This document shows, in pieces, positions 2,146 through 63,505 of a stretch of 64,000 bases of DNA. The notes beneath the pieces were generated by a model. It did not search any database. It saw nothing but the letters and a program-made list of their open reading frames with translations, and was not told the origin of the DNA. The DNA lies in NCBI GenBank assembly GCA_017462915.1, contig JAFTQG010000042.1, forward strand, positions 18,890 through 82,889, given 5' to 3'. The position numbers were made by a program, and so were the translations under genes. Source of the stretch: Prevotella sp. Lineage in GTDB: Bacteria > Bacteroidota > Bacteroidia > Bacteroidales > Bacteroidaceae. Every line of letters begins with the position of its first letter. The stretch's first letter is position 1.

Positions 2146-2231
2146 ACGAAGTGTGACCCTTCGGTATACAGAAGGTTACCTTTCACTGGGCAAAAGGTCA
2201 CCTTTTGCCTGATAAAGTGTCACCTTTTTCC
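2146..2231. repeat. 22-bp-period palindrome array, cluster A (4 units)
   Basis: Four units of a palindrome related to AAAGGTSACCTTT: GTGTGACCCTT, AAGGTTACCTTT, AAAGGTCACCTTTT and AGTGTCACCTTTTT. The central T of each lies at 2154, 2176, 2198 and 2220, an exact 22-bp spacing. The 6-9 bp between palindromes vary. The region lies between tRNA-Arg and tdk and has no gene. A separate small hairpin, CTAAAAAC/GTTTTTAG, follows at 2249-2275. Confidence 0.85.
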
Positions 2232-2549: not shown

Positions 2550-3143
2550 TCACCCTTGCTTGGCAGACGCCATGAGCTTTGCCTTCTCGTAACACTTGCG
2601 GCACAAAGGCTCATATTCCCCTGTCTCGCCGAGGAGCACGCGCTTGTCGCCCTCCACTATGCGGTGGCTGACATAAGCGAGCGAACCGCAATGGACACAG
2701 ATGGCGTGCACTTTGGTCACATCGTCGGCAATGGCCATCAGAGCAGGCATCGGTCCGAAGGGCACTCCCTTGAAATCCATGTCGAGACCGGCACAGATGA
2801 CTCTCACGCCCCTGTTTGCAAGCTCGTTGCAGACCTGGACAAGACCATCGTCAAAAAACTGGGCTTCGTCTATGCCCACGACGTCTATGTCGCTGGTAAG
2901 CAGCAGTATGGAGCCTGAGGACTCCACCGGCGTGGAGGGAATCGTGGTATTGTCATGGCTTACCACATCCGCCTCGCTGTAGCGGGTGTCTATGGACGGC
3001 TTGAAGATTTCCACCTTCTGCTTGGCAAACTTTGCACGCTTCATACGGCGTATGAGCTCTTCCGTCTTACCAGAGAACATCGAGCCGCACACGACCTCTA
3101 TGCGTCCGTGGCGTCTCATCTCACCTTGTATATTATCAGTCAT
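2550..3143 (-). CDS. tdk: thymidine kinase (type II)
   Basis: Phosphorylates thymidine to dTMP for nucleotide salvage. The protein is 197 residues from ATG 3143 ([20 protein letters not shown]). It has a P-loop at about 18-25 (GSMFSGKT), the Walker B/lasso region [11 protein letters not shown], substrate-loop residues around [10 protein letters not shown], and two zinc CxxC pairs (CVHC and CRKC) near the C-terminus, all typical of the family. An upstream in-frame extension to 3245 covers the promoter and is unlikely. It is transcribed divergently from rsmI. Confidence 0.96.
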
Positions 3144-3247
3144 TGGGAGTTTATGTATTGCTGTTATGTATTCATTAAGCCTGTGCAGGCAGCGGACAAG
3201 CCTATTCCATCCTGCCTCGGCAAAAAACGGTCGGATGAAATCCAACG

Positions 3248-11955: not shown

Positions 11956-14016
11956 TCACTTTATCATGCTGATGCTGCGAGAGAGGAACTTATCAAGCGC
12001 CTCGCCACGCAACATGCCGTTCTGCAGGAGGGCAAGGTCTATGAGCTGATGAACGACATCATTCTTCTGCGCATAGTCGGCGAGCACCTTCTTGCGTGCA
12101 TCCTTCTGTGCGGTGATGTCCTTCTCGGTCTTCGCGAGATCGTCCTTCTCATCCTGAGGAATCTCGTCATCCTTCTTGCCCGCCTTGCTCTGCTCGAGCA
12201 CAGCCTTGCGTGCCTCAAGGCCTTTTATTTCGCTGTCGATAGGCTTCAGCTGGTCTGCGCAAGCAGTCTCCGTATCGCTGAGCACCTTAGCGATAAGCGG
12301 ATGGTCTGAGTTGAGAACCATGCCGAACGAGTCAGGCATCTCGCCATAGAACGACATTCCTGCCTGAAGATGAGACATCTCCTTCATGCGGCGCATCCAT
12401 TCGTTCTGTGTTATGACAACAGGCTTCTGCTCTGCGCCAAGTCCCTCAACCTCAATATTGAACTGTGCCTTGTCAATCTTAGGGAGCTGGCTCTGGAATA
12501 CGGCTGACAAGTTGTCAGTCTCCGCTGCCGACAGCTCGTTTTTCTTCTTGTCGTCCTTTACTATGAGACGCTCCACGATGTCAGCATCCACACGTGTGAA
12601 ACGCGCCTTCTCGAAATGCTGCTCAAACACCTGAACAGCAGGAACATCAAGTTCGCCGTCGAACATCAGCACAGAATATCCCTTGTCCTGAGCCGACTTT
12701 ATATAAGAATACTGAGCCTCCTTGTCTGTAGCGTAGAGGTATACGAGATTGCCGTCCTTGTCTGTCTGCGCATCCTTTATGAGTTCCTTGTACTCATCAT
12801 ACGTGAAGAACTTGCCGTCGATGTCCTTCAGCAGAGCGAAGTCCTTTGCCCTGTCATAGAAATCCATCTGCGAGAGCATACCGTAGTTGATGAAAAGCTT
12901 CAGGGAGTCCCATTTCTCCTCATACTCCTTGCGGTTGTCATTGAAGATAGACTTCAGGCGGTCAGCGACCTTCTTTGTGATATAAGTGCTGATTTTCTTG
13001 ACATTAGCGTCGCTCTGGAGATAAGAGCGAGACACGTTGAGCGGAATGTCAGGCGAGTCTATCACACCGTGGAGCAGTGTGAGGAACTCCGGCACAATGC
13101 CCTCCACCTGGTCTGTAACGAACACCTGGTTGCAGTACAGCTGTATCTTGTTGCGTGTAAGCTCAAGGTTTGACTTAACTTTCGGGAAATACAGTATACC
13201 AGTCAGATTGAACGGATAGTCGACATTGAGATGAATCCAGAACAAAGGTTCGTCAGACATCGGATACAGTGTGCGGTAGAAGGTCTTGTAGTCCTCGTCG
13301 GTGAGCGACGACGGAGTCTTCACCCACATAGGCTCGACATCATTGATGATATTGTCCTCGGCAGTGTCGACCATCTTCTTCTCCTCTGAGCTCCACTCCT
13401 GCTTCTTGCCGAAAGCGACAGGAACAGACATGAACTTGCAGTATTTGTTGAGGAGCTCCTGAATCTTCTGCTGCTCCAGGAATTCCTTGCTGTCCTCAGA
13501 GATATGGAGGATGATGTCAGTACCGTGGCCTTCCTTCTCGGCATCGGTGATTTCGTATTCCGGCGAACCGTCACAGGTCCATTTCACAGCCTTTGCGCCC
13601 TCCTTATATGACAGTGTCACGATGTCCACCTTGTCTGACACCATGAACGAAGAGTAGAAGCCGAGACCGAAATGACCTATTATCTGATTGGCATCGTCCT
13701 TGAACTTCTCGAGGAAATCCGTAACGCCGGAGAAGGCTATCTGATTGATGTAACGGTCTATTTCCTCCTCGGTCATACCGATACCGTTATCGCTGATTGT
13801 CAGTGTCTTTGCCTCTTTATCGAGAGAGACAGACACCTTCAAGCCGTCGACGCTTCCCGAAAACTCGCCCTTCTGTGCAAGAGTCTTCAGCTTCTGTGTC
13901 GCGTCAACAGCGTTGGAAACCATCTCGCGAAGGAAGATTTCCTGGTCGCTATACAAGAATTTCTTGATGACAGGGAAGATGTTCTCTGTCGTAACTCCAA
14001 TATTTCCTTTTGCCAT
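11956..14016 (-). CDS. htpG: Hsp90-family molecular chaperone
   Basis: ATP-dependent cytosolic chaperone. 686 residues starting MAKGNIGVTTENIFPVIKKF. The GHKL ATPase pocket shows REMVSNAVDAT (about 30-40, catalytic Glu and Asn), DNGIGM (76-81) and GHFGLGFYSSFMV (114-126). The middle domain carries PLFWIHLNVDYPFNLTGILYFP and the catalytic-loop region NKIQLYCNQVFV. The C-terminal dimerisation domain is present though it lacks an EEVD tail, as in other bacteria. The gene stands alone, between its terminator and a repeat cluster. Confidence 0.97.
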   Translation of the reverse strand: MAKGNIGVTTENIFPVIKKFLYSDQEIFLREMVSNAVDATQKLKTLAQKGEFSGSVDGLKVSVSLDKEAKTLTISDNGIGMTEEEIDRYINQIAFSGVTDFLEKFKDDANQIIGHFGLGFYSSFMVSDKVDIVTLSYKEGAKAVKWTCDGSPEYEITDAEKEGHGTDIILHISEDSKEFLEQQKIQELLNKYCKFMSVPVAFGKKQEWSSEEKKMVDTAEDNIINDVEPMWVKTPSSLTDEDYKTFYRTLYPMSDEPLFWIHLNVDYPFNLTGILYFPKVKSNLELTRNKIQLYCNQVFVTDQVEGIVPEFLTLLHGVIDSPDIPLNVSRSYLQSDANVKKISTYITKKVADRLKSIFNDNRKEYEEKWDSLKLFINYGMLSQMDFYDRAKDFALLKDIDGKFFTYDEYKELIKDAQTDKDGNLVYLYATDKEAQYSYIKSAQDKGYSVLMFDGELDVPAVQVFEQHFEKARFTRVDADIVERLIVKDDKKKNELSAAETDNLSAVFQSQLPKIDKAQFNIEVEGLGAEQKPVVITQNEWMRRMKEMSHLQAGMSFYGEMPDSFGMVLNSDHPLIAKVLSDTETACADQLKPIDSEIKGLEARKAVLEQSKAGKKDDEIPQDEKDDLAKTEKDITAQKDARKKVLADYAQKNDVVHQLIDLALLQNGMLRGEALDKFLSRSISMIK

Positions 14017-14175
14017 AGTTTTATGTTTATTTGTTTGTCATTATATTCCTGCCATAGCATACTACAAAATCCATGCCAAAAACGGAATGCAAGATTCACC
14101 CCCAAATAGCCAATCAGACCGTCACAAGGAAAAGTCCCGCCATTTCCGTGCTGTACAGACCGTGACATTTTACCA

Positions 14176-14240
14176 TGTGAAAGGTCACCTTTCGCAATGT
14201 AAAAGGTGACCTATTGCAGCATGAAAGGTGACCTTTCACG
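14176..14240. repeat. 22-bp-period palindrome array, cluster B (3 units)
   Basis: AAAGGTCACCTTT, AAAAGGTGACCTATT and AAAGGTGACCTTT; the ACC triplets end at 14189, 14211 and 14233, exactly 22 bp apart. It lies 160-220 bp upstream of htpG, in the gap before ettA, about 210 bp from a MITE-like copy. Nothing coding is seen in 14017-14828. Confidence 0.88.
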
Positions 14241-14828: not shown

Positions 14829-16526
14829 ATGGCTACAGTAGACGACAAGAAAGTTATCTTCTCAATGGTGGGTGTCAACAAAATCATCCAGCAAAACCAA
14901 AAGCAAGTCCTGAAAAACATATACCTGTCCTTCTTTTACGGTGCCAAGATCGGTATCGTAGGTCTCAACGGTGCGGGAAAATCCACGCTCATGAAAATCA
15001 TCGCCGGCATCGAACAGCCAACATCCGGCGATGTCGTGTGGAGCCCCGGATATTCCGTTGGCTATCTGCCACAGGATCCTCCGCTCAATGAAGAAAAGAC
15101 GGTGAAGGAGAATGTGCAGGAAGGTGTGCAACATGTCTATGACGCACTGAAGGAGTATGACGACATAAACGTGAAATTCGGCTTGGAGGAATACTATTCA
15201 GACCCTGACAAGATGGACAAGCTCATGGCACGGCAGGCAGAGGTGCAGGACATCATTGACAGCACCGACGCATGGAATATGGACTCACGCATAGAGAGAG
15301 CCATGGACGCCCTGCGCTGTCCTCCGGGAGACTGGGCTGTAGACAAGCTGTCGGGAGGCGAGCGCCGACGTGTCGCTCTCTGCAAACTTCTCCTGCAGAA
15401 GCCTGATGTCCTCCTCCTCGACGAACCTACAAACCACCTCGACGCCGAGTCTATAGACTGGCTCGAGCAGCACCTTCAGCAGTATGAGGGCACGGTGATT
15501 GCCGTGACCCACGACAGATATTTCCTTGACGACGTGTCTGAATGGATACTTGAATTGGATCGTGGCGAGGGCATTCCATGGAAGGGCAACTACTCTTCAT
15601 GGCTCGACCAGAAGACATCACGCATGGCGCAGGAGGAGAAAAGCGCGTCGAAGCGCAGGAAAGCCCTTGAGCGTGAACTGGAGTGGATACGCATGGCTCC
15701 CAAGGCGCGACAGGCAAAGGGCAAGGCGCGACTCAACAGTTACGATGCCATGCTCAACCAAGAGCAGAAGGAGCGCGAGGAGAAACTTGAGATTTTCATC
15801 CCCAACGGTCCACGTCTCGGCAACAAGGTCATCAATGCCGAGCATGTCGCAAAGGCTTTCGGAGAGAAGAAACTGTTCACAGACCTCAACTTCATGCTGC
15901 CGCCTAACGGCATAGTAGGTGTCATCGGTCCTAACGGAGCAGGAAAGACTACCCTCTTCCGCCTTATCATGGGGCTTGACAAGGCTGATGCCGGAACATT
16001 CGAAGTAGGTGATACCGTCAAGCTGGCGTATGTCGACCAGCAGCACAAGGATATAGACCCGAACAAGACTGTCTATGATGTAGTGTCGGGAGGTACGGAG
16101 TCTTTCCGCATGGGAGGCAAGGACATCAACGCACGTGCATATCTCAGCAGATTCAATTTCTCCGGCAATGACCAGGGCAAGCTCTGCGGTGTGCTGTCGG
16201 GAGGTGAGAGAAACCGTCTGCAGCTCGCGCTCGCACTGAAGCAGGAAGGTAACGTGCTGTTGCTCGACGAGCCGACCAACGACATCGATGTCAACACTCT
16301 CCGCGCACTGGAGGAAGGTCTGGAGTCGTTCGCCGGATGTGCTGTCGTCATCTCACACGACCGCTGGTTCCTCGACCGTATATGCACCCATATCCTCGCT
16401 TTTGAAGGAGACGGCAACGTGTTCTTCTTCGAGGGAAGCTACTCAGACTATGAGATAAACAAGGCGCAGCGTCTCGGCACTGACGAAGTGAAGCGTCCGC
16501 GCTACAGGAAACTGATGGAAGAATAA
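14829..16526 (+). CDS. ettA: ABC-F ATPase, energy-dependent translational throttle type
   Basis: A soluble ABC-F protein acting on the ribosome near the E site to gate early elongation. 565 residues with two ATPase domains: Walker A GLNGAGKST (45-53), signature LSGGERRRVAL and Walker B LLLDEPTNHLD; then GPNGAGKTT, LSGGERNRLQL and LLLDEPTNDID. The linker contains the Arg/Lys-rich P-site tRNA-interaction motif region (ELEWIRMAPKARQAKGKARL). No transmembrane segments. Length and linker favour EttA over antibiotic-resistance ABC-F members. Followed by a strong terminator. Confidence 0.94.
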   Translation: MATVDDKKVIFSMVGVNKIIQQNQKQVLKNIYLSFFYGAKIGIVGLNGAGKSTLMKIIAGIEQPTSGDVVWSPGYSVGYLPQDPPLNEEKTVKENVQEGVQHVYDALKEYDDINVKFGLEEYYSDPDKMDKLMARQAEVQDIIDSTDAWNMDSRIERAMDALRCPPGDWAVDKLSGGERRRVALCKLLLQKPDVLLLDEPTNHLDAESIDWLEQHLQQYEGTVIAVTHDRYFLDDVSEWILELDRGEGIPWKGNYSSWLDQKTSRMAQEEKSASKRRKALERELEWIRMAPKARQAKGKARLNSYDAMLNQEQKEREEKLEIFIPNGPRLGNKVINAEHVAKAFGEKKLFTDLNFMLPPNGIVGVIGPNGAGKTTLFRLIMGLDKADAGTFEVGDTVKLAYVDQQHKDIDPNKTVYDVVSGGTESFRMGGKDINARAYLSRFNFSGNDQGKLCGVLSGGERNRLQLALALKQEGNVLLLDEPTNDIDVNTLRALEEGLESFAGCAVVISHDRWFLDRICTHILAFEGDGNVFFFEGSYSDYEINKAQRLGTDEVKRPRYRKLMEE

Positions 16527-26338: not shown

Positions 26339-28063
26339 CTAATCTACTTTCACCTTAATAGAACGCCGTGTAGGAGTCACAACGACATATACACCTGTCG
26401 GAAGATCATCATCATCATGTATTTCAAAGCCAGAGAGATTGAATACGCGAGAACCTGCAGGCGCAATGATACGTCCGTCGATCACTTTTACAAGAGCATC
26501 ATCCCTGCCGTCTATTGTATTTTCATCTATAGCTGTTTTTATAACACCTATAGTATCAAAATGTCCCCACACTTCATGCTTTTTATATTCATCCTGTGAT
26601 TCGTACGGTACCCAGAGTCTGATTCTTTTGTAACGATAATAGCCGTCATGGTCAAACGAATTCGCGTAAACCGTAGGAGGTGTGACGGCAAGTACCTCAA
26701 AATCCTTTAAGTCACTACACCAGTAAAAAGCTTCTTCACCAATAAACTTCACAGAACTTGGTATGGTTACTGAAGACAAAGACGAGCAGCATGAAAAAGC
26801 ACTATTCGCAATAGTTTTCACAGAATAAGGAATAGTAATTGATGTTAAGTTATTGCTTCTTGAGAAAGCATCACGTCCTATAAATGTCACAGAATTAGGA
26901 ATGGCATAATGGCCATTCCTTCCCTCAGGATATTTAACAATAGTTGTCATGTCTTTCGAGAATAAGACTCCATCCACAGACGTATAAGCAGTATTGTCTG
27001 GAGCTACAATGATATTTTCCATAGAACTGCAGGCGTCAAATGCTCTAACTCCAATACCCGTTACAGAGTAAGGTATGGCAATGGAAGATAAAGACGAGCA
27101 ATCAGAAAATGAATAATGATCAATCTTTTCTAAAGAATTAGGCAAGGTTATCGAAAATAAAGATGAGCAACCTTGGAAAGCCATATTACCAATGGATGTC
27201 AACGAGCTGGGATTCGGAATATTGACAGATGACAAAGACGAGCAACTTGAAAATGCTGAGCTTTCTATAGATGTCACAGAGCTTGGAATATTGACAGATA
27301 ATAAAGACGAGCACCTGGAGAAAGCACAAGTTCCTATTGTTTTCACAGAATTCGAAATTGTAACAGAGGATAAAGACGAGCACTGAAAAAAAGCCTCATC
27401 ACATATAGATATCACAGAACTTGGGATGGTTACGGAAACCAGAGCTGAGCACCCATGAAATGTGCCCCTATTAATAGCTCTGACAGAATTTGATATTGTG
27501 ACTGAGGACAAAGACGAACATCCCTCAAATGCCCAAGCCTTTATAGATGTCACAGAGTTAGGAATTATTATAGATGGTAAAGACGAACACTGATAGAAAG
27601 CAATTTCTCCTATAGTCTTCACAGAATTGGGAATGGTGATAGAGGATAAAGACGAACAATCCCTGAAAGCCCAGTCTCCTATTATTAGCACTGAACTTGG
27701 AATGGTTACAGACAACAAATAATTACAACCTACAAATGCGCCTTTTCCTATAGCTGTCACAGAATAAACGCAACCATCATAGTTCACTTCTGCCGGGATG
27801 TCGATTTCTGTGAATGCATAACAGTTTGTAGGTGGATATGCTACTTCTGCAGTTTTCTTTGCATTATCAAGATTGTAATAAAGTTCTCCTATCTTAACTT
27901 GCGCAAAGAGAGTCAGTGAAGAAAAGACCAGGAAGATAACCAAGAAGCATCTTAAGGACGACGACAATCCCCTGCGCAAAGGGTATTGCAAATGTAACCA
28001 GTGGCAATAGAAATGGCTACTACACACATGACCGGAAATGGTAAATCTGCTCATAAGAAACAT
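26339..28063 (-). CDS. BspA-type leucine-rich repeat surface protein with T9SS-like C-terminus
   Basis: 574 residues to the first ATG. About 13 LRR_5-type repeats of 23 residues (SVTIPSSVxxIGxxAFxxCSSL) fill residues 95-480, as in BspA proteins that bind host proteins or cells. A hydrophobic segment LRCFLVIFLVFSSLTLFAQ (about 37-55) is the signal peptide. Its n-region is unusually long from ATG 28063, so a later start (for example TTG near 27969) is plausible. The C-terminus (VFNLSGFEI...GVYVVVTPTRRSIKVKVD) resembles a type IX secretion sorting domain. A structured RNA region with a promoter lies upstream. Confidence 0.85.
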   Translation of the reverse strand: MFLMSRFTISGHVCSSHFYCHWLHLQYPLRRGLSSSLRCFLVIFLVFSSLTLFAQVKIGELYYNLDNAKKTAEVAYPPTNCYAFTEIDIPAEVNYDGCVYSVTAIGKGAFVGCNYLLSVTIPSSVLIIGDWAFRDCSSLSSITIPNSVKTIGEIAFYQCSSLPSIIIPNSVTSIKAWAFEGCSSLSSVTISNSVRAINRGTFHGCSALVSVTIPSSVISICDEAFFQCSSLSSVTISNSVKTIGTCAFSRCSSLLSVNIPSSVTSIESSAFSSCSSLSSVNIPNPSSLTSIGNMAFQGCSSLFSITLPNSLEKIDHYSFSDCSSLSSIAIPYSVTGIGVRAFDACSSMENIIVAPDNTAYTSVDGVLFSKDMTTIVKYPEGRNGHYAIPNSVTFIGRDAFSRSNNLTSITIPYSVKTIANSAFSCCSSLSSVTIPSSVKFIGEEAFYWCSDLKDFEVLAVTPPTVYANSFDHDGYYRYKRIRLWVPYESQDEYKKHEVWGHFDTIGVIKTAIDENTIDGRDDALVKVIDGRIIAPAGSRVFNLSGFEIHDDDDLPTGVYVVVTPTRRSIKVKVD

Positions 28064-28623: not shown

Positions 28624-28704
28624 AAAAGGGTGACACTTTACCTTATAAAAGGTGAGGCTTTGCCATGCAAAAGGTGACACATGAAAAGGCAAAAGGTCAC
28701 CGTC
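28624..28704. repeat. 22-bp-period palindrome array, cluster C (4 units)
   Basis: Units GGGTGACACTTT, AAGGTGAGGCTTT, AAAGGTGACAC and AAAGGTCACC; the central T falls at 28631, 28653, 28675 and 28697, exactly 22 bp apart although two units have lost part of the palindrome. It lies 50 bp from MITE-like copy 2. Confidence 0.83.
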
Positions 28705-29072: not shown

Positions 29073-29963
29073 TCACCGCATCCTGCATAGCCTTATCCCG
29101 AGCTGTGTGGGATGCCTGTTCATGTATGTATGGAGCGTCATCGGCTCCTCAACGACCTTCTTGTGTATCTGCGACGCATTGAGCATGTGGAGGCTGTCGG
29201 CATGCCATACGGCGATGCCTATATGGGATGTGTCAAGACCTTTCTTTGAGGTGATTATGGCTATTATATCTCCGTCCTTGATATAACGCCGAAGATTCCT
29301 TGTATTGGACTTCCCCAGTGCCGACTTCGGGATGTAGCGATAGCGTCTCTGCGCCATTGTCTGTTCCATGCGTCTGATGCCTGGTAGCCATTCCCTGTGT
29401 GCAGAAAGCATCTTGTAGGAGGAAATGTGTGTCGACATATAGTTGACAGGAGTCTTGGAGAAGTCCTGCCAGGCTGTAAAGGGATGGTCGCCCGTCTTTA
29501 TACCAGCAGGAGAAGGCTCTACACGTGAGACTATTCCCTGTCGCGCGTTCTGCTCTATCCAGTATGTAAAGTAATGCTGGCGTGCGGTGTACTCTACGCG
29601 GCCGTCGGCATAGCGTATGTCGCGCAGATGGCGGCAGTAGTCGTCGAAGGAGGTCTCGCCGTTGCGCGAACAGAGGGCGAGGGCGAGGACTGTCTCCACG
29701 TATGTCGTGCAGTCGAGGGCGCGGAGATTTACGACAAGGCGCTCTTCCGTGGCCTTGTCGAGTGTGCCGCCGACATAGGGTATGCCTTTCAGGGCACGGG
29801 CGAAATGGAGGACTGTCTCTCCCATGGTCTTACCTCGCAAAGAGGTCTGGGAAGTAAGGAGACGTTCTACAAGTGTCTTGTCCGACGACTGGAAGTCGAC
29901 CTTCGGAGCGGCACTGCAGAGGACTGCCGTAAGGGAAAACAGGAGCAGGAGGATTCTTTTCAT
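29073..29963 (-). CDS. DUF1460 N-acetylmuramoyl-L-alanine amidase-like protein
   Basis: 296 residues with a signal peptide (MKRILLLLFSLTAVLCSAA). PF07313-type cysteine hydrolase: ALDCTTYVE with likely nucleophile Cys85, and SHIGIAVW with His247. It is expected to cleave peptidoglycan fragments in the periplasm, by family knowledge. It overlaps the upstream DUF4421 gene by 4 bp (ATGA), indicating translational coupling. Confidence 0.9.
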   Translation of the reverse strand: MKRILLLLFSLTAVLCSAAPKVDFQSSDKTLVERLLTSQTSLRGKTMGETVLHFARALKGIPYVGGTLDKATEERLVVNLRALDCTTYVETVLALALCSRNGETSFDDYCRHLRDIRYADGRVEYTARQHYFTYWIEQNARQGIVSRVEPSPAGIKTGDHPFTAWQDFSKTPVNYMSTHISSYKMLSAHREWLPGIRRMEQTMAQRRYRYIPKSALGKSNTRNLRRYIKDGDIIAIITSKKGLDTSHIGIAVWHADSLHMLNASQIHKKVVEEPMTLHTYMNRHPTQLGIRLCRMR

Positions 29964-44886: not shown

Positions 44887-47800
44887 TTACTTTATAAAAA
44901 TCTTTCGAACGGAGCCGTTAGAATAGCGGATTATATTCAGTCCCTTCTGTAAATCATTATACTTGCGCCCATTAATATCATAATAACCTGTGGCGACAGG
45001 ACTTGACTCTTCAGTCACCGCATAGTCAATGCCTGTGGCGGATGCTTCTGTGGTAAATGTCTGTTCCTCACCGTATGTGATACTGGAAGCTGTCTTCACG
45101 AACGTGCGGAAACGATAAGTGTTGCTTGGCTGCAGGCCTGTAAGCGTAGCGGTCATCACCTGTCCCGTGCCGAAAACAGTAGTAACATTATTATTATCAG
45201 TGACAGCCTTCACGCTCATAGCCTTGCTTTCAGCCACACCTGTAACCCAATATTCAAATCCTTGTTCTATGATGTTATCCGTACCTGCCAGCACATATCC
45301 TTTCACCTTTGCACTGTTGCTGCCAATCTCAGTAGCCTCATAGGTATGGACTGTCGGCTCGAAATAACTGAAATCGCTCGGGTCGAATGTCACCCAGTCT
45401 CCGTAATAATACGTGCCGTCTCCCGATTTGTAAAACGCTCTCACATTATAGTAAGACGTGGATTGCAGGTTGCGGATGTAGCCCTCCAGTTGCCCGTCAT
45501 AGATGGCGGCATAGCCTTCGCTGGGTTTGAGCGATTCGGGGGCATCGTACTTTTTCCATTGGAAGCCCACATTCGTCTCATCATCGCTGATGTTCGTTTC
45601 GGCTGCCACAATGGCGCATGTGCTCGACACGCAACGTGGCTGCAGCGTAGTCAGTTCCAAAGCTGGAGTAGTAAAGGTCTTGCTTACGCTCTCGTTGCTT
45701 CCTTCTTTCGTCTTGACGTAATAGCTCACGGTGTAAGATGTATTTGGTTTAAGTCCGGTCATGCTCAATGTGTTTCCAGCATTTTGTCCGCTAAAACCGG
45801 CTTCCAACACGTGGGCGTCATCTTCTGTATAGCTTCCCTTGACAGATATGCTGGTCGGGCTTACATTCAGCGCGGTGATAGCTGGCTTCAGAGAGGCAGT
45901 CTTTACAGAAAGACCATATTGGTTGCTAATTCGCGTTGCACCGTATTCAGCAAACGGGTAGATTGTGTAAGTTGTATTGGGCGTAAGTCCGCCAAGTACA
46001 ACTTTATCGTTCGTGCAGTCGTATTCTTTATTATTGAAAACAAATCCTTTCTTATCTGCCGAACACGTTTGGTCGGAACTTGCGCTTATCGAGATTGCCA
46101 TTGTTGTTTGTTTGTAAAGACTTCCGGTTCCGATTCCAACCGTCGGTTCTAAGGTCTTCACCGTCTTCGTTATGGCAATTGTTTCTCCGTCTGTATTCTT
46201 AAAGGTTGCTATAATGTCATACGAAGTACCGAAGGAAAGTCCAGTTATCACGTACATGCCGCTCTCATTAGGTGTAACTTCGGTATCTCCAAATTTGACG
46301 CTTTGCAAAATAGCCTGAACATACTCATTGGCGATAACCTTAAACTCTACACTTTGCAAGTATTGACGTGCGGAAATTGAGTAGGGGATATCTATGTCTG
46401 CAATTTGTCCGGACCAGAATTTAGAGATTGTATTTATTTCCGAACCATACGCATAAATTATGGAAGAAGAGTCAAGCCCGACGAAACATTTATTATAGGA
46501 GGATAATTTACAAAATAAATAAAGAGATTTCAGAGTGCACCCTTTGAAGGCAGAGTCTCCGATGCTTGTCACGGACAAAGGAATGCTGATAGTAGTCAGC
46601 CCACTGCACCCTTCAAACACCCAACTACCTATGCTTGTTACGGACGAAGGGATGTTGACAGAAGTTAGTCCAGTACACCCACTGAACGCAGAGCTCTCGA
46701 TGTTTGTCACAGACGAAGGGATATTGATAGTAGTCAGCCCAGTACAGCCTGAGAACATATAGCCACTGATGCTTGTCACGCTTTCGGGTATACTGGCAGA
46801 AGCCAGCCCGGTGCAACCAGAGAACACAGCATTTTCTATGGTTTTCACAGACAAAGGGATATTGATAGAAGTCAGCCTTGTGCAATTACTGAACGCAGAG
46901 TATTCGAGACTTACCACGCCTTCGGGTATATTGACGGAGCCGGTTTTTCCTTCGGGACACCTTATTAATGTTGTCTTGTCTTTGTCATATAAGATGCCGT
47001 CAATAGAGCTATATGTAGGATTGCCCAACAAAACATTTATTGCAATCAGTCCGTTGCACCCACCGAACGCTTTCTCTCCGATGCTTATCACGCTTTCGGG
47101 TATACTGACAGAAGCTAGTCCGCTACAATCAGCGAACGCACCATCTCCGATGCTTGTCACACCTTCTGGTATATTGATGGAGGCAAGTTCGCAACACCCT
47201 TCAAACGCCCAACTACCGATGCTTGTTACGGACGATGGTATATTGACAGAAGTCAATCCGCTACACCCTCTGAACACAGCAGGTTCGATGTTTGTCACAG
47301 ACGAAGGGATATTTATGAACGTCAGTCCGTTGCACCCTTCAAACGCCCAACTACCGATATTTACCACGCCTTCTGGTATGTTGACAGAAGTCAATCCACT
47401 ACACCTGTAGAACGCATTATTCCCGATACTTTTCACACCTTCAGGAATATTGATAGAACCGGTTTTACCCTTGGGACATGTTATTATGGTTGTCTTGTCT
47501 TTGTCATACAAAATGCCATCAATAGAGCAATATACAGGATTGTCCGATGAAACATTTACAGCAATCAGCCCGCTGCACTCGCCGAACGCATTGTTTCCGA
47601 TGCTTGTCACATACGAAGAGATACTAACGCAAGTCAGCCCGATGCAACCATAAAACGCAGCTTTTCCGATGCTTATCACGGATGAAGGGATGGTGACGGA
47701 AGTTAGTCTGTCACAAGCATGAAACGCATCATCTCCGATACTTGTCACGATGTATTCTTTTCCATCATATGTTATTGACTGAGGAATAGCCACATCACCT

Positions 47801-47973
47801 GTATATCTATCTGTATAATAGTAGGAAGAACTGCGATATGTCACACTTGCTGTCATGCTTGTCCCATTCAAATTGTAGTAAATCCCATCTATTAGCGCAT
47901 CATGCGCATAGACGCCGCTTGCGAAGAGGGTTACCACAACGAGTAGCAGAAGTTTTTGTATTTGTTGTTTCAT
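44887..47973 (-). CDS. large BspA-type leucine-rich repeat surface protein
   Basis: 1028 residues from ATG 47973 (MKQQIQKLLLLVVVTLFASG, signal peptide to about 23); in-frame codons up to 48060 are probably untranslated. About 18 LRR_5 repeats of 23 residues (GLTSVNIPSSVTSIGxxAFxGC) cover residues 70-490, broken twice by a SSIDGILYDKDKTT insert. Four Fn3-like domains follow (about 560-950), with LTGLxPNTSYxxxxxV motifs. The tail (YYDINGRKYNDLQKGLNIIR...SVRKIFIK) resembles a T9SS sorting signal. It is likely an adhesin binding host proteins. A structured hairpin precedes the start. Confidence 0.92.
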   Translation of the reverse strand: MKQQIQKLLLLVVVTLFASGVYAHDALIDGIYYNLNGTSMTASVTYRSSSYYYTDRYTGDVAIPQSITYDGKEYIVTSIGDDAFHACDRLTSVTIPSSVISIGKAAFYGCIGLTCVSISSYVTSIGNNAFGECSGLIAVNVSSDNPVYCSIDGILYDKDKTTIITCPKGKTGSINIPEGVKSIGNNAFYRCSGLTSVNIPEGVVNIGSWAFEGCNGLTFINIPSSVTNIEPAVFRGCSGLTSVNIPSSVTSIGSWAFEGCCELASINIPEGVTSIGDGAFADCSGLASVSIPESVISIGEKAFGGCNGLIAINVLLGNPTYSSIDGILYDKDKTTLIRCPEGKTGSVNIPEGVVSLEYSAFSNCTRLTSINIPLSVKTIENAVFSGCTGLASASIPESVTSISGYMFSGCTGLTTINIPSSVTNIESSAFSGCTGLTSVNIPSSVTSIGSWVFEGCSGLTTISIPLSVTSIGDSAFKGCTLKSLYLFCKLSSYNKCFVGLDSSSIIYAYGSEINTISKFWSGQIADIDIPYSISARQYLQSVEFKVIANEYVQAILQSVKFGDTEVTPNESGMYVITGLSFGTSYDIIATFKNTDGETIAITKTVKTLEPTVGIGTGSLYKQTTMAISISASSDQTCSADKKGFVFNNKEYDCTNDKVVLGGLTPNTTYTIYPFAEYGATRISNQYGLSVKTASLKPAITALNVSPTSISVKGSYTEDDAHVLEAGFSGQNAGNTLSMTGLKPNTSYTVSYYVKTKEGSNESVSKTFTTPALELTTLQPRCVSSTCAIVAAETNISDDETNVGFQWKKYDAPESLKPSEGYAAIYDGQLEGYIRNLQSTSYYNVRAFYKSGDGTYYYGDWVTFDPSDFSYFEPTVHTYEATEIGSNSAKVKGYVLAGTDNIIEQGFEYWVTGVAESKAMSVKAVTDNNNVTTVFGTGQVMTATLTGLQPSNTYRFRTFVKTASSITYGEEQTFTTEASATGIDYAVTEESSPVATGYYDINGRKYNDLQKGLNIIRYSNGSVRKIFIK

Positions 47974-48032
47974 GTTTGTTTTCTGTAAGAAAAAAGCGTG
48001 ATACCATTCCTCTGCTTGCCTTTTACATAGGT

Positions 48033-48132
48033 ACCGCCAAGTAACCTGCACGACTAACAAGCACAGAATGGTTCACGCCTATAAACGTGAACCTTCAGTC
48101 TGCTTGTTCTCAGTCGTTGAAATTTTGGCGGT
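48033..48132 (-). promoter_or_regulatory. nested hairpin leader of the large BspA gene
   Basis: ACCGCCAA (48033-40) pairs with TTGGCGGT (48125-32); inside, CGACT/AGTCG, CAAGCA/TGCTTG and GGTTCACG/CGTGAACC (48070-93) nest in order. The structure ends 60 nt before ATG 47973 on the transcript. Confidence 0.55.
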
Positions 48133-48727: not shown

Positions 48728-48786
48728 TAAAAGGTGACCTTTTATGTAGTAAAGGGTCACCTTTCATGCGGTAAAAGGTCACCGTT
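48728..48786. repeat. 22-bp-period palindrome array, cluster D (3 units)
   Basis: AAAAGGTGACCTTTT, AAAGGGTCACCTTT and AAAAGGTCACCGTTT; central T at 48735, 48757 and 48779, exactly 22 bp apart. It lies about 320 bp before the TrpB2 gene. Confidence 0.88.
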
Positions 48787-49106: not shown

Positions 49107-50471
49107 ATGAAAAGACAGAAGCGCTATTTCCTCTCCGAGGAACAGATTCCCACACAGTGGTATAACATCCAGGCCGATATGGTCAACAAACCGTTGCCGC
49201 CGCTCAATCCGGCAACGAAAAAGCCGTTGACACCCGAGGACCTTTATCCTATCTTCTGTGAGGAATGCAGCCGTCAGGAGCTTGACCAGGAACATGCATG
49301 GATAGACATCCCCGAGGAGGTCCGCGAGCTGTACGCATACTACCGTTCCACTCCGCTCGTGCGTGCCTACGGGCTGGAGAAGGCGCTCGGCACTCCTGCA
49401 CATATCTATTTCAAGAACGAGTCTGTCAGTCCTGTGGGCAGCCACAAGCTGAACTCTGCCATCGCGCAGGCCTACTACTGCAAGAAGGAGGGCGTGACTA
49501 ATGTGACAACGGAGACGGGTGCCGGCCAATGGGGTGCGGCGCTGTCATACGCGGCAAAGGTTTTCGGACTTGAGGCCGCCGTGTATCAGGTGAAGATTTC
49601 ATACGAGCAGAAGCCTTACCGCCGCTCTATCATGCAGACTTACGGCGCACAGGTCACTCCGTCGCCTTCCATGTCTACACGTGCGGGAAAGGACATTCTC
49701 ACGCGCGAGCCGAACAACCAGGGCTCTCTTGGCACAGCTATCTCCGAGGCTGTGGAGCTGGCACGCACGACTCCCAACTGCAAGTACACGCTCGGTTCGG
49801 TGCTGAGCCATGTCACTCTGCATCAGACCATCATAGGCCTGGAGGCGGAGAAGCAGATGGAGATGGCTGGCGAGTATCCTGACATCGTGATAGGATGCTT
49901 CGGCGGCGGCTCGAACTTCGGCGGCATAGCTTTCCCTTTCATGCGACACAACATCAAGGATGGCAAGACGACACGCTTCATAGCTGCCGAACCGGCTTCT
50001 TGTCCTAAGCTGACACGCGGAAAGTTCCATTACGATTTCGGCGACGTTGCCGGCTATACGCCGCTCCTCCCTATGTACACCCTCGGACATGACTTCATGC
50101 CGGCCAATATCCATGCCGGCGGACTGCGCTACCATGGAGCAGGCGTCATCGTCTCGCAGTTGCTCAAGGACAAGCTGATGGAGGCTGTCGACATAAACCA
50201 GCTGGAGTCGTTCGAGGCCGGAGTGCTCTTTGCCAAGGCAGAAGGCATCATCCCTGCCCCGGAATCCTGCCACGCCATCGCCGCTGCAGTAAGGGAAGCC
50301 AAGAAATGCATCGAGACAGGTGAGGAGAAAGTCATACTGTTCAATCTCTCGGGACATGGGCTCATAGACATGGCGGCATACGACAACTACCTTGCAGGAA
50401 ACCTCCAGAACTACGAGGTGCCTGAGGAACTTATCGAGAAGAATATCGCAAAAGTCGAGAATCTGGTATAA
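49107..50471 (+). CDS. trpB: TrpB2-type tryptophan synthase beta-like protein
   Basis: A PLP fold type II enzyme of 454 residues, the length of TrpB2 (TrpB1 is about 400). The Schiff-base Lys114 lies in NESVSPVGSHKLNSA; TETGAGQWG and the phosphate-binding GCFGGGSNFGG are present; the C-terminus has FNLSGHGLIDM. TrpB2 makes tryptophan from indole (or phosphoserine) and serine and often works without TrpA. No trpA or other trp gene is adjacent, supporting an indole-salvage role. Confidence 0.94.
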   Translation: MKRQKRYFLSEEQIPTQWYNIQADMVNKPLPPLNPATKKPLTPEDLYPIFCEECSRQELDQEHAWIDIPEEVRELYAYYRSTPLVRAYGLEKALGTPAHIYFKNESVSPVGSHKLNSAIAQAYYCKKEGVTNVTTETGAGQWGAALSYAAKVFGLEAAVYQVKISYEQKPYRRSIMQTYGAQVTPSPSMSTRAGKDILTREPNNQGSLGTAISEAVELARTTPNCKYTLGSVLSHVTLHQTIIGLEAEKQMEMAGEYPDIVIGCFGGGSNFGGIAFPFMRHNIKDGKTTRFIAAEPASCPKLTRGKFHYDFGDVAGYTPLLPMYTLGHDFMPANIHAGGLRYHGAGVIVSQLLKDKLMEAVDINQLESFEAGVLFAKAEGIIPAPESCHAIAAAVREAKKCIETGEEKVILFNLSGHGLIDMAAYDNYLAGNLQNYEVPEELIEKNIAKVENLV

Positions 50472-60174: not shown

Positions 60175-60207
60175 TTGCTCAAATCATCTATTTTTTTCGT
60201 AATTTTG
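60175..60207 (+). promoter_or_regulatory. promoter of the lipid kinase gene
   Basis: TTG at 60175-60177 and TAATTTTG at 60200-60207; the spacing of 22 is a little long. Confidence 0.45.
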
Positions 60208-60258
60208 CATTCAGATATCCACTATGAACAGTTATTCTCGGTAGTCATCGCAAACGTT

Positions 60259-61335
60259 ATGGATAAAAAGAAAATCATCTTCATACTCAATCCGATTTCT
60301 GGAACAATAAGCAAAGCGGGTATTCCCACACTGATAGACAACATACTCGACAAGGACAAGTTCTGCTACACGATAGCGGAGACGCAACATGCCGGCCACG
60401 CCTCGGAACTGGCACGCAAGGCCGTCGAGGAGAAATACGACATAGCCGTGGCTGTCGGCGGCGACGGCACGGTCAACGAGGTGGCACGCGCACTTGTCAA
60501 TTCCCAGACGGCTCTCGGCATCATCCCCTGCGGCTCGGGCAACGGACTGGCACGCCATCTGATGATCCCCATCAACGTGAAAGGGGCGCTCGAGGTAATC
60601 AACCAGTGTGAAATCCATGACCTCGACTACGGCATCATCAACTCCATGCCGTTCTTCTGCACCTGCGGCATGGGCTTCGACGCTTTCATCTCCATGAAAT
60701 TCGCCAATGCCGGCAAGCGCGGCCCTATCACCTATGTGGAGAATGTGCTGAAGGAGGGACTGAACTACAAGCCCGAGACATACATCATAGAGGACGAGAG
60801 CGGCACAAAGAAGCATGAGGCGTTCCTCATTTCCATAGCCAACGCCTCGCAATACGGCAACGACGCATACATCGCGCCACAGGCTTCCATGAGCGACGGA
60901 CTGATGGATATCATCATCATGGAACCGTTTGACATGCTCGAGGCGGCACAGGTGTCGATAGACATGTTCAACAAGACTCTCGACAAAAACTCGAAAATCA
61001 AGACTTTCCGCTCAAAGCATGTACGCATACACCGTACGGAACCGGGAGTGATACACTACGACGGCGACCCTATCATGGCTGATGCCGACCTTGACATATC
61101 CATACGCGAGAAGGGCATCAAGATAGTCATAAACCCTAATGCCGACAAGCGGCGACGCCAACCGTCAAGAATGCAGTCGGCGTTCAGCGAGTTCATGTCA
61201 AGCATACATTCCGCACGCATGGAGGTCACGGACGCCGTGAAGGAGGTAAGCGGGGAGGTTGCCTCGGACATCTCACGGCAGGGACGCAGAGTGCAGCAGA
61301 TAAGCAAGACCATACAGAATAAGCTTAACCTATAA
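60259..61335 (+). CDS. diacylglycerol/sphingosine kinase-family lipid kinase
   Basis: 358 residues from ATG 60259 (MDKKKIIFILNPISGTISK). DAGK catalytic motifs: NPISG, VAVGGDGTVNEVARAL and GIIPCGSGNGLARHL. The C-terminal beta-sandwich includes MGFDAFISMKF and YDGDPIM. A C-terminal extension of about 55 residues (from KRRRQPSRMQSAFSEF) is helical and unassigned. It phosphorylates diacylglycerol or a sphingoid base; being adjacent to and divergent from spt makes a sphingolipid role attractive but unproven. Confidence 0.92.
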   Translation: MDKKKIIFILNPISGTISKAGIPTLIDNILDKDKFCYTIAETQHAGHASELARKAVEEKYDIAVAVGGDGTVNEVARALVNSQTALGIIPCGSGNGLARHLMIPINVKGALEVINQCEIHDLDYGIINSMPFFCTCGMGFDAFISMKFANAGKRGPITYVENVLKEGLNYKPETYIIEDESGTKKHEAFLISIANASQYGNDAYIAPQASMSDGLMDIIIMEPFDMLEAAQVSIDMFNKTLDKNSKIKTFRSKHVRIHRTEPGVIHYDGDPIMADADLDISIREKGIKIVINPNADKRRRQPSRMQSAFSEFMSSIHSARMEVTDAVKEVSGEVASDISRQGRRVQQISKTIQNKLNL

Positions 61336-61487: not shown

Positions 61488-61567
61488 CAGAAGGTGACCC
61501 TTCACGCTGCAAACGGTCACCTTTCACATGGTCAAGGATAACCTTTCACATAGTCAAAGGTCACCCT
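61488..61567. repeat. 22-bp-period palindrome array, cluster E (4 units)
   Basis: AAGGTGACCCTTC, AACGGTCACCTTTC, AAGGATAACCTTTC and AAAGGTCACC; central T at 61495, 61517, 61539 and 61561, exactly 22 bp apart. Two spacers are nearly the same (ACATGGTC and ACATAGTC). The remaining 61336-61737 has no gene. Confidence 0.88.
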
Positions 61568-61714
61568 CTTCCTTGCCACGCCTACTGTGCAGTCTTGCTA
61601 CCTGACGTTTTCCCTGTCTTGAGCGCAGGCGGACTTGCATGTTTCTGCATACCGCAATGCCGGCAATGCGGCCTTGATTTCCCTCAAAATCGCCATGTCC
61701 CAGCAAATCAAGGC

Positions 61715-61745
61715 TTGCACGTGTTGCAAATAATAAGTACCTTTG
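61715..61745 (+). promoter_or_regulatory. promoter of the HAD phosphatase gene
   Basis: TTG at 61715-61717 and TACCTTTG at 61738-61745, spacing 20. Confidence 0.6.
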
Positions 61746-61771
61746 TATCGTAAATGTAAAACCGAACGAAG

Positions 61772-62413
61772 ATGATAAAAGCTATCCTTTTTGATTTTGA
61801 CGGCACTCTTGCCGATACCGCTCCAGGCATAGTGAAGACGATGGAATGCACTTTCAAGGAAATGGGGCTGCCCGTCCCTTCCGAGGAGGCTATGCGGAGC
61901 ACCATCGGACTGCCGTTGCCGAAAGCGTTGCAGTCGCTCAACGGACTCAATGACAAGGACACCGAGACTGCCACAGAGATATACCGCCGCCTGTTTGCCA
62001 CTGTGGAGGCTGCGCTGATAACCATATTCCCCAAGGTCAAGGAGACTCTCCAGACACTGCACGAGAGAGGTTTGCGCCTCGCCATCTGTACATCGAGAAA
62101 CGTGGAGTCGCTCGACATGATTCTCCAGCACCACGACATCGGCAGGTTTTTCGAGACAAAAGTCACACATTCCGACAACCTTCCGGCAAAGCCTGCGCCG
62201 GACATGGTGCTCGCACTGCTGGAGCGCATGAGGCTCAAGGCCGACGAGGCTATCGTGGTAGGTGACACCACATTCGACATACAGATGGGCAACAGCGCAG
62301 GATGCCGCACGGTCGCCGTAACATACGGCAATCATGCTGTCGACCGTCTTTCTACGGTCTGTCCGTCGGTGATGATAGATTCCTTCGACAAATTGCTTGA
62401 CGAGATAGAGTAA
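61772..62413 (+). CDS. HAD-superfamily hydrolase, phosphoglycolate phosphatase-like
   Basis: 213 residues. Motif I LFDFDGTLADT (catalytic Asp8 and Asp10), motif II ICTSR, motif III Lys in LPAKPAPDM and motif IV VVGDTTFDIQMG. The helical cap lies between residues 15 and 85, as in Gph and pyrophosphatase PpaX. The substrate is not determinable. dinB follows after 15 bp, a probable operon. Confidence 0.9.
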   Translation: MIKAILFDFDGTLADTAPGIVKTMECTFKEMGLPVPSEEAMRSTIGLPLPKALQSLNGLNDKDTETATEIYRRLFATVEAALITIFPKVKETLQTLHERGLRLAICTSRNVESLDMILQHHDIGRFFETKVTHSDNLPAKPAPDMVLALLERMRLKADEAIVVGDTTFDIQMGNSAGCRTVAVTYGNHAVDRLSTVCPSVMIDSFDKLLDEIE

Positions 62414-62428
62414 CTTACACACAAAGCC

Positions 62429-63505
62429 TTGGTACGCAAGATTATACATATCGACATGGACAGCTATTTTGCGTCTGTAGAGCAAAGGGACGACCCTTCG
62501 CTCAGAGGCAAGCCGTGCGCCGTGGGCGGGCTCTCAGACCGCGGTGTATTGTCTACGGCGAGTTATGAGGCAAGGAAATTCGGCGTACATTCTGCCATGT
62601 CGACAAGGCGTGCCCTGGAACTTTGTCCCGAACTCATCGTCATCCCCGGCAATCATGAGAAATACAAGGCTGTGTCAAGGCAGATACATGAGATATTCCA
62701 TGAATACACCGACATCATCGAACCGATATCGCTTGACGAGGCTTTCCTCGATGTCACGGAGAGCAAGGACGGCTGTACTACGGCAACAGAGATAGCCTGT
62801 GAGATAAAACGCAAGATAAAGGAACGGCTCGACCTTACCGCGTCGGCAGGCGTCTCGTACTGCAAGTTTCTTGCAAAGATAGCCTCCGACTATGATAAGC
62901 CTGACGGTTTATATGTCATACCGCCAGAGCGCGCCCTGGATTTCATCGACTCCCTGCCCATAGAGAAATTCTGGGGAGTGGGCAGCACGACGGCACGACG
63001 TATGCACCAGCTCGGCATAAACTGCGGATTCCAGCTGCGACAGTGGTCTCTGCAGGGACTGACAAGCGAGTTCGGCAAGGCCGGGAGAATCTATCATGAC
63101 TTTGCCCGAGGCATAGACGAGCGCCCTGTAATAGCCGAACGGGAGCGGAAAAGCGTAGGTTGCGAGACGACTTTCGAGAAGGACATCTATGCCAGGTCTG
63201 CCGTAATAATAGAGCTTTACCATATAGCCGAGGAACTGATAAGGCGGCTTGACAAGGTGGCGTTTGAGGGATATACGCTGACCCTGAAGGTGAAGTATCA
63301 CGATTTCACGCAGATAACAAGGAGCCATACTGAAACAGTCGTCTTCTCTGACATGAAAACCATATTGCCCGCAGCCAAGAAGCTGATGAACGGCATCGTA
63401 TTCAATGACGAGCGGAGAATCCGTCTGCTCGGCCTGAGCGTATCAAATCCACGGGATGAACTGCACAGCAGGCACAACTGGGTGGAACAGGAACTGGGAT
63501 TCTAA
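62429..63505 (+). CDS. dinB: DNA polymerase IV (Y-family translesion polymerase)
   Basis: 358 residues, starting with TTG (MVRKIIHIDMDSYFASVEQ after initiation). Catalytic residues: Asp9 in HIDMDSYF and the SLDEAFLDV pair; RAGS-like region YEARKFGVHSAMSTRRA; helix-hairpin-helix GVGSTTARRMHQLG; little-finger domain to the end. A beta-clamp-binding tail is short (EQELGF). It bypasses lesions with reduced fidelity. No LexA-type box was recognised upstream. Confidence 0.95.
   Translation: MVRKIIHIDMDSYFASVEQRDDPSLRGKPCAVGGLSDRGVLSTASYEARKFGVHSAMSTRRALELCPELIVIPGNHEKYKAVSRQIHEIFHEYTDIIEPISLDEAFLDVTESKDGCTTATEIACEIKRKIKERLDLTASAGVSYCKFLAKIASDYDKPDGLYVIPPERALDFIDSLPIEKFWGVGSTTARRMHQLGINCGFQLRQWSLQGLTSEFGKAGRIYHDFARGIDERPVIAERERKSVGCETTFEKDIYARSAVIIELYHIAEELIRRLDKVAFEGYTLTLKVKYHDFTQITRSHTETVVFSDMKTILPAAKKLMNGIVFNDERRIRLLGLSVSNPRDELHSRHNWVEQELGF

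Follow-up and report, generated by a model that had tools for sequence, protein, structure and literature searches.

What are the short palindromes that stand exactly 22 bp apart, gap after gap, between the genes of a Prevotella genome, and what might they do for the cell? The original prediction came from the window, i.e. the whole stretch of 64,000 nt analysed here (G000:C21:18890-82889, where G000 is the Prevotella sp. assembly GCA_017462915.1), and it described five clusters, A to E, holding eighteen palindromic units. All five exist where they had been placed, with a 13-bp palindrome (consensus AAAGGTSACCTTT) and 9-bp linkers giving the exact 22-bp step; our recount is 19 units, or 18 if the decayed first unit of array B is excluded. 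The five arrays and the genes beside them are as follows.

1920-1994, + strand: tRNA-Arg, neighbour of array A
2149..2227, no strand assigned: array A, four units (2149, 2171, 2193, 2215) with 9-bp linkers
2550-3245, - strand: thymidine kinase gene, neighbour of array A
11956-14016, - strand: Hsp90 gene, flanking the divergent gap of array B
14158..14236, no strand assigned: array B, four units (14158, decayed; 14180; 14202; 14224)
14829-16526, + strand: gene with two ABC ATPase domains, flanking the divergent gap of array B
26339-28063, - strand: BspA-type LRR gene, neighbour of array C
28626..28704, no strand assigned: array C, four partly decayed units (28626, 28648, 28670, 28692)
29073-29963, - strand: amidase-like gene, neighbour of array C
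44887-48060, - strand: LRR gene, flanking the divergent gap of array D
48730..48786, no strand assigned: array D, three units (48730, 48752, 48774), with no recognisable fourth slot on either side
49107-50471, + strand: PLP-dependent enzyme gene, flanking the divergent gap of array D
60175-61335, + strand: diacylglycerol-kinase-like gene, flanking the convergent gap of array E
61490..61568, no strand assigned: array E, four units (61490, 61512, 61534, 61556)
61598-62485, - strand: ORF without a Pfam match at E 1e-5, flanking the convergent gap of array E

Matches to AAAGGTSACCTTT with up to three mismatches number 34 in the window, against 14.2 ± 3.6 in shuffled sequence (largest 25; none of 100 shuffles reaches 34). 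A sixth array lies on the same contig outside the window, at G000:C21:11172, which is 9.9 kb before array A and continues the even spacing.

The observation is real and larger than first reported. With a weighted four-slot array score, we found 106 arrays in a G000 sample of 26 contig pieces (1.593 Mb, 54% of 2.93 Mb) and 3 in the reversed sequence, which extrapolates to ∼195 loci per genome in place of the five-locus family initially proposed. Raising the score cut-off from 40 to 50 lowers the number of arrays from 112 to 103 and that of the reversed control from 34 to 0; because the count barely falls while the control vanishes, the array class is discrete. Arrays occur in each of the 26 sampled contigs, which were chosen for having matches, and a two-unit pattern at 22 bp with up to three mismatches is found at 377 places in the whole of G000, versus 1 in the backwards control. 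The range of three to four copies per cluster holds in the window, but the usual design genome-wide is exactly four units with no further unit in register (92 of 106 arrays). Likewise, the absence of any spacing slip is true of the window's five clusters but not of the genome sample: strong units no more than 130 bp apart give 449 distances, of which 438 are exact multiples of 22, and the remaining 11 are 21, 65, 87 or 109 bp, i.e. one base short, and thus represent rare slips. The proposal that spacing is restricted to 22 bp therefore came through the genome-wide search. Strong units hardly ever stand alone (155 of 156 lie inside arrays, the sole exception belonging to an array truncated at a contig start). 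A clue to autoregulation from isolated units was looked for and dropped, there being just one such unit, at a contig end, and no avoidance of the core was seen outside the arrays of G000 (GGTNACC, 173 versus 179 expected). We found no published account of this array in a literature search that included analogues and from which most subscription journals were beyond reach.

Which parts of the array are held constant? In 51 aligned arrays, which read AAAGG..CCTTT with YRY/RYR linkers, information is highest at GT.AC, the second A and the second-last T. The centre usually holds G or C, and the linkers follow the pyrimidine/purine pattern YRYNNNRYR; 50 G000 arrays show no conservation outside the four units within 250 bp on each side. 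An array is present at the orthologous gap of G000 arrays in 27 of 28 cases in the related genome G060, 7 of 9 in G144 and 3 of 4 in G125 plus named relatives, and the single G060 site scored as 'absent' concerns a weak element (score 48) with flanks that match several loci. Conversely, of 44 arrays found in G060, 23 could be mapped by both flanks, and all 23 have a G000 counterpart; fetching by a perfect two-unit match biases the G060 loci, and some of those from G125/G144, to good pairs. Between G000 and G060 (23 pairs), the palindromes diverge by 7.7%, the linkers by 22.9% and the aligned 60-bp flanks by 17%, with only 0 to 2% at the GT.AC positions. This slower evolution, together with the predominance of multiples of 22, bears out the suggestion that phasing is under constraint. 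Gap openings within arrays number 9, versus 22.9 expected from the flanks (25 pairs, 2 of 27 alignments having been dropped), although arrays were located in register, which makes few inside indels partly a matter of construction. In G144 and G125, the linkers cannot be aligned and the centres are often A or T, but four units at 22 bp are kept. An independent, gene-based test is in accord for G144, with 6 shared, 4 G000-only and 0 G144-only arrays on the 3′ side (p=7.6e-5; 5′ side p=0.012), and gives weak agreement for G125 (p 0.04 and 0.22) and, with too few orthologues (54 reciprocal best hits), Fisher p values of 1 and 0.48 for G084.

Do the arrays serve the genes beside them? Among 97 G000 arrays (9 of 106 at piece ends were dropped; gene calls are from a longest-ORF heuristic), the gap is tandem for 49, divergent for 26 and convergent for 22, against an intergenic-base background of 55, 24 and 21%, and no array lies within a called gene over 450 bp. 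Median distances are 136 bp to stop codons and 227 bp to start codons, placing arrays somewhat nearer to stops. One could imagine that the arrays are sites for a global transcription regulator and have no architectural role; an Lrp-type octamer, for example, might wrap four sites, given that Lrp-type proteins occupy, as dimers, sites separated by two or three helical turns and, as higher oligomers, wrap DNA (PMC2995911). There are two PF01037 (Lrp-type) matches in G000, but this domain occurs in every one of 28 genomes selected to include carriers and non-carriers of arrays, such that its presence is uninformative on Lrp as the binder. Further, the arrays show no promoter bias and are nearer to stops than to starts, the nine window genes that adjoin them share no function (one of the nine has no match), and a regulon is not expected to be evenly spaced along the chromosome, as these arrays are (see below). 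Regulatory sites thus strike us as a rather improbable explanation.

The units within an array are not independent of one another. In G000 (n=106), reverse-complement covariation is positive for units 1:2 (z=4.5) and 3:4 (z=3.7) and negative for 2:3 (z=-2.7), which are instead alike in direct orientation (z=3.1); the unit pairs 1:3, 1:4 and 2:4 show no excess of reverse-complement similarity. The G060 values (n=50; 4.9, 4.3 and -3.2 for 1:2, 3:4 and 2:3) come largely from the same sites and are not independent, whereas 34 arrays from G125/Palleniella/Xylanibacter and G144 give 2.6, 5.0 and -0.4, along with a 2:4 signal (z=2.6). At least 12 of 13 positions pair in 24 (1:2) and 22 (3:4) of the 106 arrays, in 8 for 2:3 and in just 2 for both 1:2 and 3:4; in other words, as a rule no more than one of the two pairs is good. 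In 22 G000/G060 orthologue pairs (1 of 23, with shifted register, was left out here and in the linker count that follows), double changes number 5 in 1:2 and 6 in 3:4, versus 1.95 and 2.64 expected, and 2 and 4 of these, respectively, were paired both before and after, compared with 0 or 1 in the other four unit pairs. Small linker inversions between the two genomes affect 5 of 44 cases in linkers 1 and 3 and 0 of 22 in linker 2; few in number, they do no more than hint at DNA-level pairing. When arrays are oriented by their better pair (n=96; 10 of 106 dropped for ties or short flanks), the linkers are asymmetric to a degree seen in 0 of 500 random orientations and the flanks weakly so (p=0.010), which suggests polarity, or decay at one end. 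In the 61 of these 96 arrays whose two pairs differ by at least 2, the neighbouring gene on the better-paired side faces the array with its 3′ end in 32 cases and with its 5′ end in 29; on the other side the numbers are 25 and 36.

Such pairing could in principle belong to RNA. Units 1:2 and 3:4 can each form a hairpin with a 13-bp stem and a 9-nt loop, the double changes just described speak for a bidirectional terminator or other RNA hairpin, and the arrays are closer to stop than to start codons. Intrinsic terminators, however, would sit downstream of genes and be depleted in divergent gaps, where the 26 of 97 arrays match the background. On the sense strand of the 49 tandem gaps, G-T mismatches number 75 versus 95 for A-C (p=0.14), which is not the direction expected of RNA, and both hairpins are rarely good in one array. 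The Rfam scan of the window returned nothing but tRNAs at gathering thresholds, and around array A, where ten matches appear at E up to 10, only the tRNA attains its own family's threshold. We reject the terminator/RNA reading on gene context and mismatch type and consider it extremely improbable. Because there is neither a gene-orientation bias nor a G-U signature, we read the pairing as a DNA-level trait, the covariation of 1:2 and 3:4 plausibly arising from DNA hairpins or cruciforms, through either selection for these structures or hairpin-templated repair.

How far does the design extend? We searched 150 genomes of the genus for a generic frame in which AAAGN5CTTT recurs three times at a 22-bp step (up to three mismatches), and obtained matches in 64, with 22 genomes holding 50 to 402 places (controls 0 to 15); in some genomes control matches are as numerous as true ones, and some single matches are simple tandem repeats of other kinds. 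With 64 of 150 genomes matching and 22 at 50 or more places, many species are without recognisable arrays. A family sample of 151 genomes, searched at up to two mismatches, yielded 13 with matches: 7 of the 10 from the genus and 6 of the 141 from other genera (29 genera), the latter with at most 3 places each. The frame persists while the core changes by genome: GGTSACC (GTNAC) in G000 and G060, CAGCC/CTATG in G012, CGGCT/CTACG in G084, TGCCA in G117 and STNAS in P. corporis DSM 18810, where three-unit places number 138 and the control gives 4.

Several sightings lie outside this core set. A convincing four-unit array with cores GTCGTAC/GTACGAC is found in a neighbouring genus (G207:C15:20881-20981), its three overlapping matches being all those counted in that genome. 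Among viral contigs, two hold exact matches, at 3 places in all, and one contig filed as viral, IMGVR_UViG_2558860931_000002 (L269, L270), carries two arrays of four identical AAAGCATAGCTTT units, which may be the chromosomal flank of a provirus. Candidatus Doudnabacteria MAGs (L128, L155, L160) have single two-unit hairpins, CAAAGGTSACCTTTG-N7-CAAAGGTSACCTTTG, with equal spacing and no four-unit array; these are possibly terminators, and convergent. Finally, 22-bp-period tandem repeats with different, repetitive linkers in other genomes of the genus (L072, L082, L085, L089, L091) are perhaps unrelated families.

The placement of the arrays along the chromosome is, to us, the most surprising feature. 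In G000, where spacing is typically 8 to 20 kb, 80 gaps between successive arrays have a mean of 14.9 kb, a median of 13.7 kb and a CV of 0.46, whereas intergenic sites placed at random give 0.91 ± 0.09 and in 2000 draws never a value as low. Of the 80 gaps, 4 are under 7.5 kb, whereas random placement predicts 33.6 and gave at least 21 in every one of the 2000 draws; one of the four is an 88-bp gap within a single long array. The six longest pieces by themselves give 42 gaps with a mean of 16.1 kb, a CV of 0.42 and a smallest gap of 7.5 kb (0 of 2000). The contigs of G000, G125, G144 and G060 were picked from match listings but read from fixed positions, and the test was made within contigs. 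G125 is also even (16 gaps, mean 12.6 kb, CV 0.27, 0 of 2000), and there is smaller support from G060 (4 gaps, P 0.010) and G010 (contig C3, 23 places among the matches listed, CV 0.53, P 0.001; C2, 11 places, P 0.031). Even spacing is not universal, since it is not shown in G144 (6 gaps, P 0.12), G084 (37 gaps, CV 0.84, P 0.19, minimum 1.7 kb) or G117 (27 places among the matches listed, CV 1.06, P 0.78); the places counted in G010 and G117 are mismatch-defined subsets.

The evenness and the dialect-like cores bring to mind DNA uptake signals (USS/DUS-like) spread by biased transformation, which can be evenly spaced, form inverted pairs and have species dialects. On spacing, one passage of PMC1939737 cites a significant evenness of uptake sequences and another calls it less even than a role in compaction needs. 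With uptake signals described as running from 'hundreds to thousands' of copies (PMC2346458), ∼195 is at the low end. Moreover, uptake signals are single motifs that also occur within genes, whereas isolated units here amount to 1 in 156 and none of the 97 arrays is inside a called gene over 450 bp. We judge this origin very improbable.

The strongest competing reading is a mobile element, now domesticated or fossil, with insertion immunity: old, non-autonomous elements, PINSR- or MITE-like and amplified lineage by lineage, would owe their spacing to target immunity and survive as fossils or in partly domesticated form. Amplification is indeed visible in G084 and G017 (L166-L185), where 42 oriented copies share ∼190 bp around the array, with imperfect inverted ends TGTAAAgATAATTC / GAAAAATATTTACA and position-specific linkers that look like recent spread; this element is probably a younger amplification and perhaps PINSR itself, judging from length, dispersal and genus. 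Its cores of two classes are shuffled among units 1-3, and one copy (L175, 16482) looks internally inverted. The linker asymmetry in G000 would suit a mobile origin too, as would the precedent of PINSR, a repeat 188 bp long that is dispersed between genes, one strain having 177 copies and another 184 (PMC4755523). On the other hand, G000 conserves nothing beyond the four units, no empty site exists for the 23 G060 arrays with both flanks mapped (among loci fetched for good pairs), the difference in divergence between palindromes and linkers argues for selection, and a search covering the Y1 type found no such transposase in G000. We regard a mobile origin as unlikely but serious; the even spacing could also stem from the insertion immunity of an old element.

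Our tentative preference, held at somewhat less than even confidence, is that the arrays are chromosomal architecture sites for a putative oligomeric, co-evolving DNA-binding protein. The usual four units, the two-turn period and the near absence of single sites fit an oligomeric protein, and the lack of a gene-orientation preference, the positional conservation and the even spacing fit one that acts on the chromosome. The original prediction of a cooperative dimeric DNA-binding protein or nucleoid factor is still the best fit, and it fits better now because the arrays are evenly spaced, although the protein itself is only putative. What the earlier reading did not include are the four-unit rule, the complementarity of 1:2 and 3:4, the change of core from species to species and the evenness along the chromosome. 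Mechanistically, four palindromes two helical turns apart could seat four dimers, or else two tetramers, along one face of the DNA; a sequence-specific oligomerising protein might then stiffen, wrap or bridge the DNA at points ∼15 kb apart, and the bound arrays would delimit or anchor chromosome domains. The cores (GTNAC in G000, STNAS in P. corporis, CTATG, TGCCA and others) would drift with the specificity of the protein. Reverse-complement covariation of neighbouring sites, however, is unexpected from simple protein binding and counts against this architectural reading. So do the genomes in which evenness is not shown, the many species without recognisable arrays and the somewhat closer position to stop codons. 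A bolder version, about which we are more doubtful, is a genome-wide chromosome metric in many Prevotella, in which a putative oligomeric protein would act on 79-bp four-palindrome sites, mostly 8 to 20 kb apart, and set evenly sized domains, with its specificity and some 200 sites drifting by species while the 22-bp grid stays fixed.

Intergenic palindromic repeats are themselves a known kind of sequence; it is the architectural role that, if true, would be a new kind of chromosome organisation. We know of no bacterial system that resembles a chromosome-wide, sequence-encoded set of domain boundaries. With cores particular to each species set on an unchanging 22-bp grid, the arrays would exemplify co-evolution between a protein and ∼200 sites, and the core dialects could act as lineage markers. 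The identities of the barriers between bacterial topological domains remain to be established, with random placement commonly observed in E. coli (PMC6907758), and we are excited that an evenly spaced, conserved, DNA-encoded site would make the domain-boundary question directly testable.

How do the arrays compare with described systems? P. gingivalis belongs to the same order as Prevotella, and its BrickBuilt MITE is likewise a dispersed intergenic tandem repeat. We reject it as a match: BrickBuilt has terminal inverted repeats and a 23-nt unit, AGAYCATARTATCCTCTCRTRTG, in 1-22.8 copies (PMC4596501), whereas the arrays have a 22-bp period, usually four units and another sequence. PINSR is closer, being dispersed, intergenic and present in ∼180 copies in a Prevotella, with a length near that of the ∼190-bp G084 element. 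It is specific to the P. intermedia/nigrescens group, with about three-quarters of its regions common to two strains (PMC4755523), and as a conserved 188-bp repeat it differs from the G000 arrays, in which the four 22-bp units alone are conserved (250-bp flanks, n=50); section 3.4 of its description names no 22-bp palindrome array and no even spacing. Compared by description, not by sequence, PINSR may be a relative from the same superfamily. Lrp-type octamer sites, aligned two (or three) helical turns apart with four dimers per octamer, share the alignment that a 22-bp spacing provides, but are described for gene control regions (PMC2995911); by analogy, Lrp-type proteins make aligned dimers and DNA-wrapping octamers conceivable at the two-turn sites of the arrays. 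Like BIME/REP elements, which are extragenic palindromes in more than 100 copies, regularly spaced and in alternating orientation (PMC2817692), the arrays are extragenic and numerous (106 in 1.593 Mb). BIME/REP elements carry a GTAG-type tag at the hairpin foot (PMC2817692) that the arrays lack, and the arrays have an exact 22-bp grid, usually four units and even chromosomal spacing. A RAYT/REPIN system is rejected, there being 0 matches to PF01797 (Y1 tyrosine transposase) at E 0.001 in G000, which is 99.97% complete. In E. coli, one BIME was found to hinder the diffusion of supercoils, and matS, a 13-bp motif with 23 sites, one per 35 kb on average, is bound in Ter by MatP dimers that can tetramerise (PMC6907758). 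The arrays resemble matS in that a 13-bp motif recurs along the chromosome, with a putative binder in place of a dimeric MatP, and they differ in that matS consists of single sites confined to Ter, while arrays are found in each of the 26 sampled contigs. BIMEs and matS may thus serve as working analogues for an architectural role of the arrays.
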